This document shows positions 906-37,210 of a DNA stretch of 37,513 nucleotides, one piece after another (positions within the stretch are counted from its first letter, which is position 1; every line of letters starts with the position of its first letter). The DNA is taken from NCBI GenBank assembly GCA_030837085.1, contig JAUPLE010000623.1:1-37513 (forward strand), written 5' to 3'. The notes beneath the pieces are model-generated. The model did no database searches and had not been told where the DNA came from. It saw only the letters and a list, made by a program, of their open reading frames with translations. Source of the DNA: Acidobacteriota bacterium (GTDB lineage Bacteria; Acidobacteriota; Aminicenantia; UBA2199). The position numbers and the translations under genes are program-made.

Positions 906-1052
906 ATGATGATAAAAAATTTTAGAATGGTCATTGATCTTACAGTCAATATTTCAGAAATGATTACCCCCGAATTAATCGAACAACTCAAAACAGAAAA
1001 TATCGAGTATAATTATCTCACTCTTGACCGAGAAAAACTGGATAAACTCTAG
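906..1052 (+). CDS. Small hypothetical protein (MMIKNFRMVIDLTVNISEM...LDKL); possibly a decayed or truncated gene
   Basis: caaggagaactt SD directly before tandem ATGATG at 906; the listed ORF start at 780 is less likely. The frame stays open for 46 codons past the TAG at 1050. Confidence 0.4.
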   Translation: MMIKNFRMVIDLTVNISEMITPELIEQLKTENIEYNYLTLDREKLDKL

Positions 1053-2376: not shown

Positions 2377-4095
2377 TTGACTATTATGCTTAGAACTGAT
2401 AACTGCTACCCCCTTGTGCCAGAGAGTTCTATCCAGGAGTCGCTAATTGCCTCTTTTAAAGAGGGTGTCACTCCCTCGTTGCAATACCATCGTAACACTG
2501 AACTACTTGCAGACCTGGCGTTGAAAATACTAGATAGAATTAAGAGAAATGCCAACCCGGAACATATCCTAACCATTGTCCACAGCCTCATTAAAAACCA
2601 GGATTATCGCCTTGTTGCCGATTATTTATATGCCCGGCGTACTAACAAAAAAGAGATATTGAATATATTTGAACGACTTATCGCGACAGATAACCCCATA
2701 GAAATAAATAGAATACGATATCAATTGGCATTTGCCCGCTTTCTCAGTGCGGTTCCCTGTCCAGGGAAGGCCAATATTTCAATAGTTTCTCATCTTGATG
2801 ATGTCTTTTCCGAATCATTGCAAGGAACAGCCGTTTATCTAATCGATTCATCGATGGCATTACCTTTGATTGCTCTCCTTCACGATGTTGGGGTTGAGTT
2901 AGGAATCTTTATCGAACAGCAATATAATTTTCCTGGTCTTAACGCCCTTATACGACAAGGCGTTGTGCGGACCTGGGTTTTGCCAGACGGTAAAGCCATC
3001 GTTAGCAAACGAGATAATCCCCAAAAACCAGGACGGTTCCGTAAAGAACAATTTAATTATAAAGCCATTCTGTCTAGAATGGAGAGAAACACCACCCTGC
3101 TTCTCGAAAAAGCCATAAAGAAAAAGGATATCTTACTCAAAATTGCTCAGCCATTTGCTTACATTTGGGATGGCTGCTCGAGAAGGAATTACGCACTGTC
3201 TATCCAGAGTGACGGCATTTCCCTTGAAGACTTATTGATGAAAGAGCGTGATCAAGCCATGCGTTTTGACTATTTGACTCATTGCCGGTTGATTCTTGAT
3301 ACACTTTATGAGAGCGGTATCCTTTGGGGAGATATGAGCCCGCGTAATATCCTGGTGCAGCAGACAGCCCAGACGATTTCTTATCATATCTTTGATTTTG
3401 AAAAAACCCAGGTTATGGATGAACCAATTTCTATTGAGAAACGGAGAGAGCACTGCCGGGGACAGATTTGTGTGGAAGAATTCGGAATCATCTGTACACC
3501 GGAAGAGATGCAAAAATGCTTCCATGGTTACTTTAATCCGAAGGAATGGGATTTTGAATCGGGCGAGGCGCTGCGGTTTCCCCAACGCCCAGAAGTAGCC
3601 GATATCCTGAAGGGACGAGGTATCCATGATGTTACCCTTGGAAAGTACAATCAAACGGATTGGGACATGATGAATGCACGAATCCCTGATATTGATCCGC
3701 TAACCGGGGAACGCAGATTTCCCGGCCATTTGAATTTTAAAGTCGAGCATTATCTAAGCTGCGCCGGTTATCAAAATGCCGGGGACTATGAACGGAAAAC
3801 GACTGAAATTTTAATTGCCGCCAAACAATATGACTGTTATAATACTATTGTCGTATTATTAACCGAGGCCACGGATATTATTGAATCGGCTTTTCTCAAA
3901 ACAGAATTCGACTATATTCTTGATAATAAATCAACAGAATGGGTAATACCTCCAAAGCAACCCATTCGCATACTTACCCATACCATTGATGTATTCTACC
4001 GGTCTCGAAAAGACAAAAAAACGTTTCAAAATTTGTCTAGCCGCTGGAGGAGTGCCATGATCGAGGAAGAAGAATTACAGAATGGAAGAATTTAG
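2377..4095 (+). CDS. Protein kinase-like / Kdo-kinase-like fold protein
   Basis: GILWGDMSPRNILVQ...YHIFDFEKTQ matches the HxDxxxxN...DFE catalytic core of the kinase-like fold. TTG at 2377 or ATG at 2386 as start. Confidence 0.55.
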   Translation: MTIMLRTDNCYPLVPESSIQESLIASFKEGVTPSLQYHRNTELLADLALKILDRIKRNANPEHILTIVHSLIKNQDYRLVADYLYARRTNKKEILNIFERLIATDNPIEINRIRYQLAFARFLSAVPCPGKANISIVSHLDDVFSESLQGTAVYLIDSSMALPLIALLHDVGVELGIFIEQQYNFPGLNALIRQGVVRTWVLPDGKAIVSKRDNPQKPGRFRKEQFNYKAILSRMERNTTLLLEKAIKKKDILLKIAQPFAYIWDGCSRRNYALSIQSDGISLEDLLMKERDQAMRFDYLTHCRLILDTLYESGILWGDMSPRNILVQQTAQTISYHIFDFEKTQVMDEPISIEKRREHCRGQICVEEFGIICTPEEMQKCFHGYFNPKEWDFESGEALRFPQRPEVADILKGRGIHDVTLGKYNQTDWDMMNARIPDIDPLTGERRFPGHLNFKVEHYLSCAGYQNAGDYERKTTEILIAAKQYDCYNTIVVLLTEATDIIESAFLKTEFDYILDNKSTEWVIPPKQPIRILTHTIDVFYRSRKDKKTFQNLSSRWRSAMIEEEELQNGRI

Positions 4096-5107
4096 TAATT
4101 ATATACAGGATCACATCGCGGTAGCAGTAGATGAAACAATTCGTCTAGGAACGGTGGATTTTCGTTTAGTGAGCAATGTGCCCGGATTTGCAGCACTTCA
4201 GTATTTTAGTAAAGTCGCTCGACTCCCCAATCACGGTAAGAGAACAGTATTTGAGCTGTGGTGCGTATCATTGAAAGAATCCTCCCTCGATCGACAATAT
4301 ATCCAGGCGCATATTGATCAGACGTACCGCGGCAAGAGCTTCACGGATGGATATTATGCGACAGATCATTTCGGTTCACCTGTTTACCTCGTCACCTGCG
4401 GACATCGTTATTTCGTATTTGGTGAACAGTTGGAGCGTGTCGTTTGGCCATATTTCGTAAAATATTTTTTAATGCTGCATACCTTAAATGGAGAAGCGCT
4501 TCAACTTAAAGGAGCAGCTTGTAAAATTGGGTCGGCAGGCACACTTATACTTGGCCGGGGAGGGACGGGAAAAACCGTCTTTCTCACACAACTCTGTTTA
4601 CACGGCGCGAAATTCATAACGAATTCCCATGCGGTAATCACAAAGGGCCAGGTCATCGGCGTTGCCAGTTCAATTCGTATTAGACCCGGCCATTGGTTTT
4701 CCGACTTAACCGCAAAAGTCGAAAATACCCCGGCTCTTAAATCAGGCGAAATCATTATAGACCCCTACGATGTATTCGATATCCGTGTGAAAGACCAGGA
4801 GCCGGTAGAGATAAAAAACCTGTGTATTATTGATTTTCAAAAACCCGGTTGCCATATCATAAAGGAACTTTCGGAACAAGATGCTTATAATTATGCTGAA
4901 CAGTTCTCTTTGGCAATTAATGTTTATCGTTTAGAAGAGGATTTACTTGATCTCTATAAAAATGATCCCTGGAAATTTTCCCAGGCCTATAACAAAATGA
5001 AAATCCAACTTCGAGAGATAGTAGCGCGCAGTCGCTGTTATTACATCAGCAGCGACGTGCTTGAAAAAACATATCGAGATGAAATCATCGCTTTGCTTTC
5101 GTCATAA
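4082..5107 (+). CDS. HPr kinase-like ATP-binding protein
   Basis: Walker A LILGRGGTGKTVFL in a context typical of HprK-related kinases in biosynthetic clusters; overlaps the upstream CDS. Confidence 0.65.
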   Translation: MEEFSNYIQDHIAVAVDETIRLGTVDFRLVSNVPGFAALQYFSKVARLPNHGKRTVFELWCVSLKESSLDRQYIQAHIDQTYRGKSFTDGYYATDHFGSPVYLVTCGHRYFVFGEQLERVVWPYFVKYFLMLHTLNGEALQLKGAACKIGSAGTLILGRGGTGKTVFLTQLCLHGAKFITNSHAVITKGQVIGVASSIRIRPGHWFSDLTAKVENTPALKSGEIIIDPYDVFDIRVKDQEPVEIKNLCIIDFQKPGCHIIKELSEQDAYNYAEQFSLAINVYRLEEDLLDLYKNDPWKFSQAYNKMKIQLREIVARSRCYYISSDVLEKTYRDEIIALLSS

Positions 5108-14091: not shown

Positions 14092-14168
14092 AAGAACAAC
14101 AATTGAAGGCTGCGTACCATCGTGATCATGGAGTATGGAGTATGGAGTATGGAGTGAATAAGTTATGA
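14088..14168 (+). CDS. Candidate 26-aa small ORF MKEQQLKAAYHRDHGVWSMEYGVNKL, overlapping both neighbours
   Basis: ATG at 14088 overlaps the TGA of the upstream gene; its TGA (14166-14168) overlaps the ATG (14165) of the ligase gene; contains a heptamer tandem repeat. Confidence 0.3.
   Translation: MKEQQLKAAYHRDHGVWSMEYGVNKL
14128..14155 (+). repeat. 4x tandem heptamer ATGGAGT
   Basis: atggagtatggagtatggagtatggagt read directly, immediately upstream of the ligase start codon. Confidence 0.95.
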
Positions 14169-15676: not shown

Positions 15677-15913
15677 ATGGAACAAACCATAATTGAAATT
15701 GTCAAGAATATTCTTCCTGATAAGAGTAAAGCAGTTTTGCCTACGTCCGATTTGGTCGAATCGCTTGGCTTTGATTCTGTTAATATACTTGAATTGATTA
15801 CTGCTTTGGAAGAAAAATTCGACATTTTATTCGAGGATGAGGATTTAGACCTAGCTAATTTCGGGACAATAAATGCCATACAAGTAATACTTGGGAAATA
15901 CGGGAAGAGTTAA
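15677..15913 (+). CDS. Acyl carrier protein
   Basis: LVESLGFDSVNILELITALEEKFDI with phosphopantetheine serine (DSV); aaaggaggtgtatt SD. Confidence 0.92.
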   Translation: MEQTIIEIVKNILPDKSKAVLPTSDLVESLGFDSVNILELITALEEKFDILFEDEDLDLANFGTINAIQVILGKYGKS

Positions 15914-25554: not shown

Positions 25555-26502
25555 GTGTTGTATTTTGTTACTAAAGATGAGGCCTTAATATATGGTCGAA
25601 GAATAGAGATTAACGTCGTCTATCATTGCAATTTATCGTGTCGTGCCTGTGCTCACTTCTCCCCCATATCGCCAAAATACTATCTCGATCCAAATGAATT
25701 ATACCAACAACTTTCAATTTTAGCCAAATGTTTTCGGGTTAGGTATGTTGAATTACTTGGAGGCGAACCCTTGCTCCATCCGCAACTTATAGAAATCGCT
25801 CGTGCAGTCCGTGAATCCGGTGTAACTCGCTATATAAGAATTATAACCAATGGTCTTCTCTTGGAGAAAATGAAGGATATTTTCTGGAAGGAAGTAGACG
25901 AAATCCACATTTCAGAATATCCCGGGAAGGAAATGACACAGGCGCAATTGGATTACATCCGGAACAAGGCAGAATTATTAAATGTAAATATAGAGTTCAT
26001 GCATTATGTCAACTTTCGCGAAGTCTACTCCAGCATTGGCACAAATGATGCCGCGCTAATAAAACGTATTTATAAGTCATGTCAATGTACTCACCGATAC
26101 CAAAGCTTTACTTTTGCACAGGGATATTTCTATAAGTGTCCCCTGGCTTTCTTCATACCATTAAAATCACAAAATATTGAAATAAGCGATCCAACTGTGG
26201 ATGGAGTAAAAATTATTGACGTTCCGGACCTGAGAGAAAAGTTGCTGCAATATCTTGAATCGCCAAATCCACTGAACTCTTGCAAGTATTGCCTGGGAAG
26301 TGTTGGTAAATTGTTTCCCCATGAAACAATTCCACGAAAACATTGGCACACATTGCATGAATTTTCAACCGAACAATTAATTGATATGAAACAACTGGAT
26401 GTTTTAGAAAACATCAGTCCTGACGCGGATAATGGTTTTTTAAAACAACCATACCCTCAATACAATTATTTAGATGTAAGGCCGATAACAAGTGAGGTTT
26501 GA
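25555..26502 (+). CDS. Radical SAM protein
   Basis: YHCNLSCRACAHFSP, ELLGGEPLLHPQL, IITNGLLL; GTG start after aaggaggat SD. Confidence 0.88.
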   Translation: MLYFVTKDEALIYGRRIEINVVYHCNLSCRACAHFSPISPKYYLDPNELYQQLSILAKCFRVRYVELLGGEPLLHPQLIEIARAVRESGVTRYIRIITNGLLLEKMKDIFWKEVDEIHISEYPGKEMTQAQLDYIRNKAELLNVNIEFMHYVNFREVYSSIGTNDAALIKRIYKSCQCTHRYQSFTFAQGYFYKCPLAFFIPLKSQNIEISDPTVDGVKIIDVPDLREKLLQYLESPNPLNSCKYCLGSVGKLFPHETIPRKHWHTLHEFSTEQLIDMKQLDVLENISPDADNGFLKQPYPQYNYLDVRPITSEV

Positions 26503-27519
26503 ATGATAAAGGATCGCCAATTTACCGTTAGAACGGATATTACAAATTTTTGCAACCTAAGTTGTGATATGTGTCATTTCGGAGCCTATTCTCCCCCTGA
26601 CAAGACTCGAATAACATTGGAGCAATTTAAAACAAGATTTTCCGAACTGGGACAAAAAACAAAAACCATTCTTCTTTCTTGTGCTTGCGAACCTCTTTGC
26701 ACTACACTTGAAGAATTTAATTCAATTGTTAATTATGCCTCGAAAGAGCTCGATATCAAAGATATCAGGCTTATTACCAATGCAGTAAATCTAAACAAAA
26801 AATTCTGTTCACAAATCATTGAGTCCGGGATTTCTCAAGTTCATATCTCTATTGATAGTAATATAAAGGAAACTTATGAGAAGATCCGCAAGGTCGCCAA
26901 ATTTGAGCGAGTGGCTTCAAATATTACCAGGTTGCGAGACCTCAAAGATAAATATAAGACAACATTTCCCATAATTCAATTCAATGTTGTGCTCATGAAA
27001 TCAAATATTAAACAGATGGAAAATTTTATTGACTTTGCCCAGCAAATGGGTTGTGAGCAAATATCTTTTTTTCACCTGATTCCCAAGAAAAAAGAACATT
27101 ATGATGAAATATTATTCCATTACAAAAAGCAGACAAACGTAATTTTAGACATCATCCGGAAAAAGTGCAAAATGCATAAGATTTCCATCCTGGATATTCC
27201 CGAAAATTTTTGTTTGCCGCCATTGAAAACAGAAGCTGAAGCCAACAACAAAACCAGGCCACGTTTATGCCGATATGTTAATTCCAATGATGTCTTTATT
27301 ACCGATACTGCGGATTTTAGACCCTGCGGTTTCTGGTATAATGAACCTCCCTTTGGAAATCTTGATAAAGAAAAATTCCAGGACATCTGGGAAAAAAAGG
27401 ATTACATTCTTTTCCGCGATGAAATGAAAAAAGGCATCATTTCAAAATATTGTTGTGAAATTTGTCCATCAATGGGGACAGGCGATGTGAACGATCCCAA
27501 AACATTCCAGGTCCATTAA
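26503..27519 (+). CDS. Radical SAM protein with SPASM/twitch-like C-terminus
   Basis: NFCNLSCDMCHFG; C-terminal CRYVNSNDVFITDTADFRPCGFW...GNLDKEKFQDIW...CCEICPSMG. Confidence 0.88.
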   Translation: MIKDRQFTVRTDITNFCNLSCDMCHFGAYSPPDKTRITLEQFKTRFSELGQKTKTILLSCACEPLCTTLEEFNSIVNYASKELDIKDIRLITNAVNLNKKFCSQIIESGISQVHISIDSNIKETYEKIRKVAKFERVASNITRLRDLKDKYKTTFPIIQFNVVLMKSNIKQMENFIDFAQQMGCEQISFFHLIPKKKEHYDEILFHYKKQTNVILDIIRKKCKMHKISILDIPENFCLPPLKTEAEANNKTRPRLCRYVNSNDVFITDTADFRPCGFWYNEPPFGNLDKEKFQDIWEKKDYILFRDEMKKGIISKYCCEICPSMGTGDVNDPKTFQVH

Positions 27520-35509: not shown

Positions 35510-36850
35510 ATGTTCAAGGATAAAGAATTTAATGCCAGCCTATTCAAAATTGCTATCCCGATCATCATTCAGCAAAGTTTCATGTGTTCACTCAACTATG
35601 TTGATCTCATAATGATTGGCCAGTTAAGTGAAACCTCTGTTGTGGCAGTTGGCGCAGCCAATCAGTTATTTTTCATTTTTTCATGCCTTGTTTCCGGGTT
35701 GACTGATGGAGTTGCAATATTTTCGGCACAGTACTGGGGGAAAAGAGATGTAAAGAATATAAAAAAGGTGTTGGGATATTCTCTTCCATTGAGTATTTTT
35801 ATTGGTTTCTTGTTTTTTGTGTTGAGCATATTTTTTCCTGGCGTCATAGTAAAACAATATTCGCATGATGCAAAGGTAATTGGACAAGGAATAGATTATT
35901 TACGGGTTGCGGGTTTAAGTTATGTTTTTACTGCAATCACCTTCTGTTTTGTCTCTGTCTTGAGAAGTATACAGGATATAAAAATTCCTGTAACTGCTAG
36001 TGTTATCGCGCTTTTACTTAACAGTTCTTTAAATTATATTTTGATCTTTGGGCATTTAGGATTTCCAAGTTTAGGTGTAAAAGGGGCGGCATTGGCTACG
36101 TTGATTTCACGTGGTGTTGAAATGTCTATTGTTATATTTCATATATATCATAAAAATTCCCCGGCTTCAATATCTATTTGTCATATCCTCTCGTTGGATT
36201 ACAATTTTTTCAAATTATTTATGAAGATATCGATTCCACATGTACTCAGTTTGATGACCTGGTCACTTGGGTTGGCAGCATATCAAATAATATTTTCGAA
36301 AATGGGGACAAATGCATACGCTGCAGTTAATATAGCCCAAACCGTTGAAGCCTTAACGTTTGTCCTTTTTACAGGATTGAGTGGTGCGGCATCTGTAATG
36401 ATCGGCAACCAAATCGGCGCCAATAATATGCATCGCATTCTTACTTATTCGAAAAAATTTTTTATTTTTGGTATTTCTATGGCCCTATTCCTGGGTTGTC
36501 TTATGGCAATAGGGGGAAATATTCTACTATCGTTCTATGAAATTTCAGCGGCTACCCATAACTTCGCCGCCATGCTCATAAAAGTTTATGCTGCACTTTT
36601 ATGGATAAAGGTTCTAAATATGCTGTTGTATTCCATCCTGTGCGCGGGGGGTGACACGAAATATTCCTTTCTCATCTCGACTACTGCGCTGTGGTTTTTT
36701 GGAATACCGACGGTATTTATAGGTGCAATTATTTTTGAATTTCCGGTTTATATAGTTATGATACTCGTTTTCAGTGAGGAATTAGTAAAATTAATAGGCG
36801 GACTTCACAGATTTTTTTCCAGAAAATGGATAAGGAGAATCATTAGTTAA
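35510..36850 (+). CDS. MATE family multidrug/oligosaccharidyl-lipid/polysaccharide-type efflux protein
   Basis: IAIPIIIQQSFMCSLNYVDLIMIGQLSETSVVAVGAANQLF; multiple TM segments. Confidence 0.92.
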   Translation: MFKDKEFNASLFKIAIPIIIQQSFMCSLNYVDLIMIGQLSETSVVAVGAANQLFFIFSCLVSGLTDGVAIFSAQYWGKRDVKNIKKVLGYSLPLSIFIGFLFFVLSIFFPGVIVKQYSHDAKVIGQGIDYLRVAGLSYVFTAITFCFVSVLRSIQDIKIPVTASVIALLLNSSLNYILIFGHLGFPSLGVKGAALATLISRGVEMSIVIFHIYHKNSPASISICHILSLDYNFFKLFMKISIPHVLSLMTWSLGLAAYQIIFSKMGTNAYAAVNIAQTVEALTFVLFTGLSGAASVMIGNQIGANNMHRILTYSKKFFIFGISMALFLGCLMAIGGNILLSFYEISAATHNFAAMLIKVYAALLWIKVLNMLLYSILCAGGDTKYSFLISTTALWFFGIPTVFIGAIIFEFPVYIVMILVFSEELVKLIGGLHRFFSRKWIRRIIS

Positions 36851-36957: not shown

Positions 36958-37140
36958 TCAATTTACCACAATTTCATCTTCAGAACACAAAAACTGATTG
37001 TTTCCCAAAACTTCATCTTCAGAACATAAAACCTGATTGTTTACCAAAACTTCATCTTCACAAGTATACGAAACTTCTGTTGCTGAAATCCCACTACCCT
37101 TCACTCTAGCCGACTTAAGTAAATCAAGTACCTTTTTCAT
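36958..37140 (-). CDS. Small repeat-containing peptide, candidate RiPP-like precursor
   Basis: 60-aa ORF with AAGGAG SD at 37148-37153 (minus) 7 nt before ATG; C-terminal 13-aa tandem repeats. Confidence 0.78.
   Translation of the reverse strand: MKKVLDLLKSARVKGSGISATEVSYTCEDEVLVNNQVLCSEDEVLGNNQFLCSEDEIVVN
36961..37065 (-). repeat. 39-bp in-frame tandem repeat, about 2.7 copies
   Basis: ttcatcttc(a) anchors at 36973, 37012 and 37051 (exact 39-bp period); copies 1 and 2 differ at 6 of 39 positions. Confidence 0.95.
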
Positions 37141-37181
37141 GGTTAATCTCCTTAAAATAAATTTTTATAACTTGAAAATAA

Positions 37182-37210
37182 TGAATATCACAAAATCGGA
37201 CTTTTGTCAA
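37182..37210 (-). promoter_or_regulatory. Sigma70-like promoter for the repeat peptide gene
   Basis: Minus strand TTGACA (37205-37210), 17-bp spacer, TATTCA (37182-37187); followed by a short leader and SD. Confidence 0.5.

Follow-up and report, generated by a model that had tools for sequence, protein, structure and literature searches.

The cores of plesiocin-type graspetides combine paired Thr/Ser with paired Glu/Asp residues. Among ranthipeptides, the maturase PapB accepts spacings of n = 0-6 in Cys-Xn-Asp (PMC9413430), and because of this tolerance the spacing between a Cys and an acidic residue is weak evidence for a RiPP. The window, i.e. the whole stretch of DNA that was analysed (37,513 nucleotides, an entire contig), encodes a 60-aa peptide that ends in tandem repeats in which Cys and Ser lie beside acidic residues, and a preliminary description took it for a new multi-core RiPP precursor. 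This raises the question as to whether the repeats are cores or the product of a DNA-level duplication. The explanation that we moderately favour is that the ORF is a small orphan gene, translated and restricted to its lineage, that has recently grown by in-frame tandem expansion; its interpretation as a RiPP precursor is not established.

The small ORF and its surroundings

The minus-strand ORF is borne out in coordinates, sequence and AAGGAG Shine-Dalgarno (SD) element as first given (Table 1). It starts with ATG and ends with TGA, and its 60-aa product has a basic N-terminus, an acidic tail and three Cys in total. In Markov shuffles of the local 663-base region, 25% of cases contain an ATG ORF that reaches 60 aa, but such an ORF together with a strong SD arises in only 0.18% (a chance of ~0.002). 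The codon usage of the whole ORF gives an LLR of 0.114 per codon, which corresponds to the 32nd percentile of gene pieces of the same length and is attained by 9.6% of wrong-frame pieces. This score is carried mostly by the repeat part (0.167, vs. 0.039 for the first 25 codons), and codon usage is uninformative for the first 25 codons by themselves. Given the rare combination of SD and ORF and the gene-like codon usage of the whole, we treat the ORF as translated, which on these sequence features it probably is. A promoter is only suggested by the TTGACA upstream, which has no good -10 box at standard spacing and is absent from the output of a consensus promoter scan. A single-sequence model of the peptide yields no confident fold (mean pLDDT 47.6, pTM 0.25).

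Table 1. Features at and around the 60-aa ORF (window coordinates).
Feature	Position	Strand	Basis
60-aa small ORF	36958..37140	-	ORF list, sequence, codon usage
39-bp (13-codon) tandem repeat array, ~2.5 copies, encoding (T/C)(C/S)EDE(V/I)(L/V)(V/G)N(NQ(V/F)L)	36962..37060	-	Tandem Repeats Finder, repeat search, codon comparison
Shine-Dalgarno-like AAGGAG, seven bases before ATG	37148..37153	-	Read in TTTTAAGGAGATTAACCATG and SD scan
TTGACA, possible -35 box, 65-70 bases ahead of the peptide ATG	37205..37210	-	Read from sequence
Same-strand ORF upstream of the peptide, C-terminal 89 aa, cut by contig end	37243..37512	-	Family and homology searches, no match
MATE-family efflux transporter, convergent with the peptide gene	35510..36850	+	TIGR00797, 6.4e-61

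In the window, the larger genes run along the plus strand. No gene follows the 60-aa ORF in its own direction, the next gene being the convergent MATE transporter, which ends 107 bases beyond the peptide stop. Upstream, the contig ends 373 bases from the start codon, and matching its last 214 bases against the genome gave no overlap by which to extend it. The truncated same-strand ORF on this side, separated from the 60-aa ORF by 102 bases, gave no match to any family, maturase families included, and no relative, and no SPASM-type Cys cluster is seen in it by eye. No modifying enzyme was found near the ORF on the visible side of the contig end, and Pfam scans found no ATP-grasp ligase among those window ORFs that were scanned, the upstream flank being off the contig. 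The neighbouring glycosyltransferase and MATE genes led to no close relatives by synteny. The tetranucleotide composition of the window correlates with that of the host at 0.918 (0.83-0.97 for host contigs) and is compatible with the window belonging to the host genome.

Short ORFs with a strong SD (at least 25 codons) occur independently three times in the 37.5-kb window, namely the 60-aa ORF, a 78-aa ORF at 15677 that encodes an acyl-carrier-like protein, and a 48-aa ORF at 906 (906-1052, plus strand; MMIKNFRMVIDLTVNISEMITPELIEQLKTENIEYNYLTLDREKLDKL). Between the first ORF of the window and this 48-aa ORF, the minus strand at 690-870 resembles by eye part of a group II intron end, with no Rfam match at the gathering threshold; no Rfam families were found in the window. 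Elsewhere (14128-14155), a perfect four-copy 7-bp intergenic tandem repeat, ATGGAGT, contains an SD-like GGAG and an ATG.

The tandem repeat and the search for relatives

The last 35 codons of the ORF amount to ~2.5 copies of a 39-bp unit, reported by Tandem Repeats Finder as a single array (2.5 copies, score 163), and a repeat search aligns three copies of it in register. At the DNA level, identity between copies 2 and 3 is 87%; between copies 1 and 3 it is just 62% across the whole unit, because the array includes only the 3' part of copy 1. The codons are ACT TGT GAA GAT GAA GTT TTG GTA AAC AAT CAG GTT TTA (copy 1), TGT TCT GAA GAT GAA GTT TTG GGA AAC AAT CAG TTT TTG (copy 2) and TGT TCT GAA GAT GAA ATT GTG GTA AAT TGA (copy 3). 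All nine bases of GAAGATGAA are identical in the three copies, so that its constancy in the protein cannot be told apart from mere identity of the DNA. Copies 1 and 2 differ by six base changes, of which one is silent; copies 2 and 3, compared up to the stop, differ by four, again with one silent, and the neutral share of silent changes is ~20%. The amino acids of the repeat show no sign of selection, though the numbers of substitutions are very small, and with so few the absence of selection is not proven. Since the copies agree at the DNA level and silent changes are not in excess, the "near-invariant" motif points to a young duplication and not to demonstrated selection. The preliminary description was right about the 13-aa repeats, but the near-invariant pattern that it noted in them is explained by the youth of the DNA duplication.

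The position of the Cys also shifts by one residue between the repeats, with TCEDE in copy 1 (CXD/CX2E) and CSEDE in copies 2 and 3 (CX2D/CX3E). The CX2D/CX3E spacing to which attention had been drawn hence holds for copies 2 and 3 only, the Cys of copy 1 being one residue nearer to the acids, and this displacement speaks against the proposal that each repeat is an equivalent modification unit. The third copy ends after CSEDEIVVN; similarity is lost past GTAAA, and the stop follows. Such an ending would fit an ancestral gene that was shorter and underwent duplication, in frame, at its 3' end.

The peptide is present in a single copy in its own genome. By protein comparison, only chance-level matches were obtained among 100 relatives, 143 genomes of the class and 396 of the phylum, and nothing significant emerged from a search by exact octapeptides of 85,488 species genomes, from viral contigs, phages, plasmids and the PDB, or from the Pfam, NCBIfam, PHROGs and PADLOC profile libraries. 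Homologs with a conserved leader and repeat, the lack of which the preliminary description had itself named as counting against a RiPP precursor, were thus not found across genome, phage, plasmid and profile searches. A degenerate DNA pattern coding for two CxEDE motifs with variable spacing had one match in the 143 class genomes besides the 60-aa locus; the match to this pattern in genome G460 was rejected, having a TAG stop inside. A match with CTPDEML repeats in a phylum relative (G327) was rejected as chance. It is a long 21-bp tandem array between two genes (locus L016, 1141-1662), with CTPDEML in one frame, and shows that such repeats can arise without a gene.

Radical SAM genes of the window and of the host

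Two radical SAM genes of the window, at 25555 and 26503, had been put forward as modification partners, which our analysis does not bear out. They lie 9-12 kb from the peptide on the opposite strand with seven other genes between, there is no SD-led small ORF beside them, and of the 29 places found by TIGR03974 in the whole genome none is on the contig of the window, the flank past the contig end being outside the search. Both look generic and unlike peptide maturases; the nearest models for the gene at 26503 are tungsten-cofactor and metalloenzyme maturases, far below cut-off. Their setting, a long plus-strand series shared with genes for glycosyltransferase, aminotransferase, AMP-ligase, ACP, B12-type radical SAM and FomB-like kinase proteins, is not a recognisable peptide cluster.

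This kinase (4082-5107, plus strand) is related to FomB, a phosphonate monophosphate kinase (NF000361, E 4.5e-90, 302 bits vs. a cut-off of 400), and its series comprises a cytidylyltransferase, a carbamoyltransferase, a class III aminotransferase, three B12-type radical SAM genes, the AMP-ligase and the ACP. Elsewhere in the genome, a PEP mutase scores over cut-off (contig C862, 18205-19056), and the genes before it resemble by eye a phosphonopyruvate decarboxylase and an iron alcohol dehydrogenase. Taken together, these genes make it probable that the host has a phosphonate pathway.

With its 29 TIGR03974 places the host is rich in radical SAM/SPASM peptide loci, and for a draft genome the set is unusually rich. 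The comparison set consisted of 21 radical SAM places on ~19 host contigs. At ~15 of them a Cys-containing, SD-led small ORF lies upstream on the same strand, mostly 0.1-0.5 kb from the matched stretch, and at three a plausible small ORF lies directly downstream. Across these host contigs (L050-L069), about twenty radical SAM loci are seen, mostly with adjoining SD-led Cys-containing small ORFs and with several unrelated leader types. No leader common to the window peptide and the small ORFs at these loci was found.

On host contig C133 (locus L055, 5033-7392, plus strand), two sister precursor-like ORFs lie beside a radical SAM gene that scores best, though below cut-off, with the PapB ranthipeptide maturase model NF047865 (E 3.9e-45). 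In one of the ORFs (L055, 5903-6154) the core is written twice (...LEPGCLGRPIADRTDAQEPGCLGRPIADRS; repeat GCLGRPIADR / PGCLGRPIADR), and the sister peptides have no match in Pfam or NCBIfam. Like the window peptide, this precursor is a small SD-led ORF of the same host that contains Cys and has a C-terminal segment repeated in tandem. What sets it apart is the paralogous sister, the shared leader and the PapB-like radical SAM gene next to it, none of which the window peptide has, and the two have no sequence in common. As a repeated-core RiPP candidate, the C133 pair of sister peptides is far superior to the window peptide, which is without the marks of the host's candidates, namely a paired enzyme, a sister copy and a shared leader.

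The readings weighed against known peptide systems

If the peptide were a multi-core RiPP precursor, residues 1-24 would be the leader and each CSEDE-type repeat a core, and a maturase past the contig end or elsewhere would link Cys or Ser/Thr to the acids. Small size, SD, basic N-terminus, repeats and Cys/Ser beside acidic residues are in keeping with this, but no same-strand maturase is in view, and whereas the host's candidates precede a radical SAM gene at most places, nothing comes after the window peptide. PapB does join Cys to Asp or Glu (PMC9413430); the Cys of copy 1 is displaced by one residue. The many radical SAM peptide loci of the host, one with a twice-repeated core by a PapB-like maturase, raise the prior that a small Cys-bearing peptide is a RiPP precursor, yet its leader is not that of the small ORFs at those loci, it has no relatives, and what is left of the preceding gene resembles no maturase, either by family or by its Cys residues. 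On balance we regard a RiPP precursor as possible but unlikely. The more specific version, a new lineage-specific multi-core precursor with 13-residue (C/T)(C/S)EDE repeats and a maturase just past the contig end in a host rich in radical SAM peptides, is less likely still.

There might also be no gene at all, in which case frames would stay open because an intergenic tandem array has a repeat period that is a multiple of three, and the SD and ATG would be coincidental. In its first 25 codons the ORF does not outscore wrong frames, ORFs of this length are common in shuffles if no SD is demanded, relatives are lacking, and a comparable array in a phylum relative is apparently not translated. 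SD and ORF together are rare by chance, however, and the codon usage of the whole ORF is within the range of genes, which makes an absence of coding improbable.

In the orphan-gene explanation that we favour, replication slippage or unequal recombination would recently have duplicated the 39-bp unit in frame, lengthening an ancestral peptide of ~34 codons, roughly MKKVLDLLKSARVKGSGISATEVSYTCEDEVLVN, and the CSEDE "motif" would owe its seeming invariance to the youth of the DNA copies. The product would probably be a small unmodified peptide, and its gene the last of a minus-strand unit, with a transcript that is probably its own or due to read-through. As to its role, the reading that assumes least is a lineage-specific small protein under weak constraint. 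As caveats, tandem duplication likewise enlarges real RiPP precursors, which are often orphans, the precursor-like ORFs linked to radical SAM genes in the host, one with a duplicated core, raise the RiPP prior, and the side of the genome that would carry an upstream enzyme lies beyond the contig end. If true, the orphan gene would be one of very many and otherwise of little importance, but it warns that tandem duplication at the DNA level can mimic a conserved core motif. If a maturase did adjoin the peptide, a new core sequence would be added to the repeated-core peptide set, and a host with about twenty other radical SAM peptide loci would lend itself well to the study of core multiplication.

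The locus resembles ranthipeptides (freyrasin, PapA/PapB) in that a Cys is followed by Asp/Glu at short spacing, repeatedly. Ranthipeptides are judged by a constant CX3D/E-type motif in each repeat and a PapB/SCIFF-type radical SAM/SPASM maturase in the cluster. Here copy 1 departs from copies 2 and 3, so that the Cys spacing varies, there are just three Cys overall, no sequence relation is seen, and the visible contig has no such maturase by TIGR03974 and no PapB-like enzyme in view. From multi-core graspetides of the plesiocin type the peptide differs in having no ATP-grasp ligase in view and just one hydroxyl residue in each of copies 2 and 3, and it resembles them in its repeated acidic motif with hydroxyl residues nearby.
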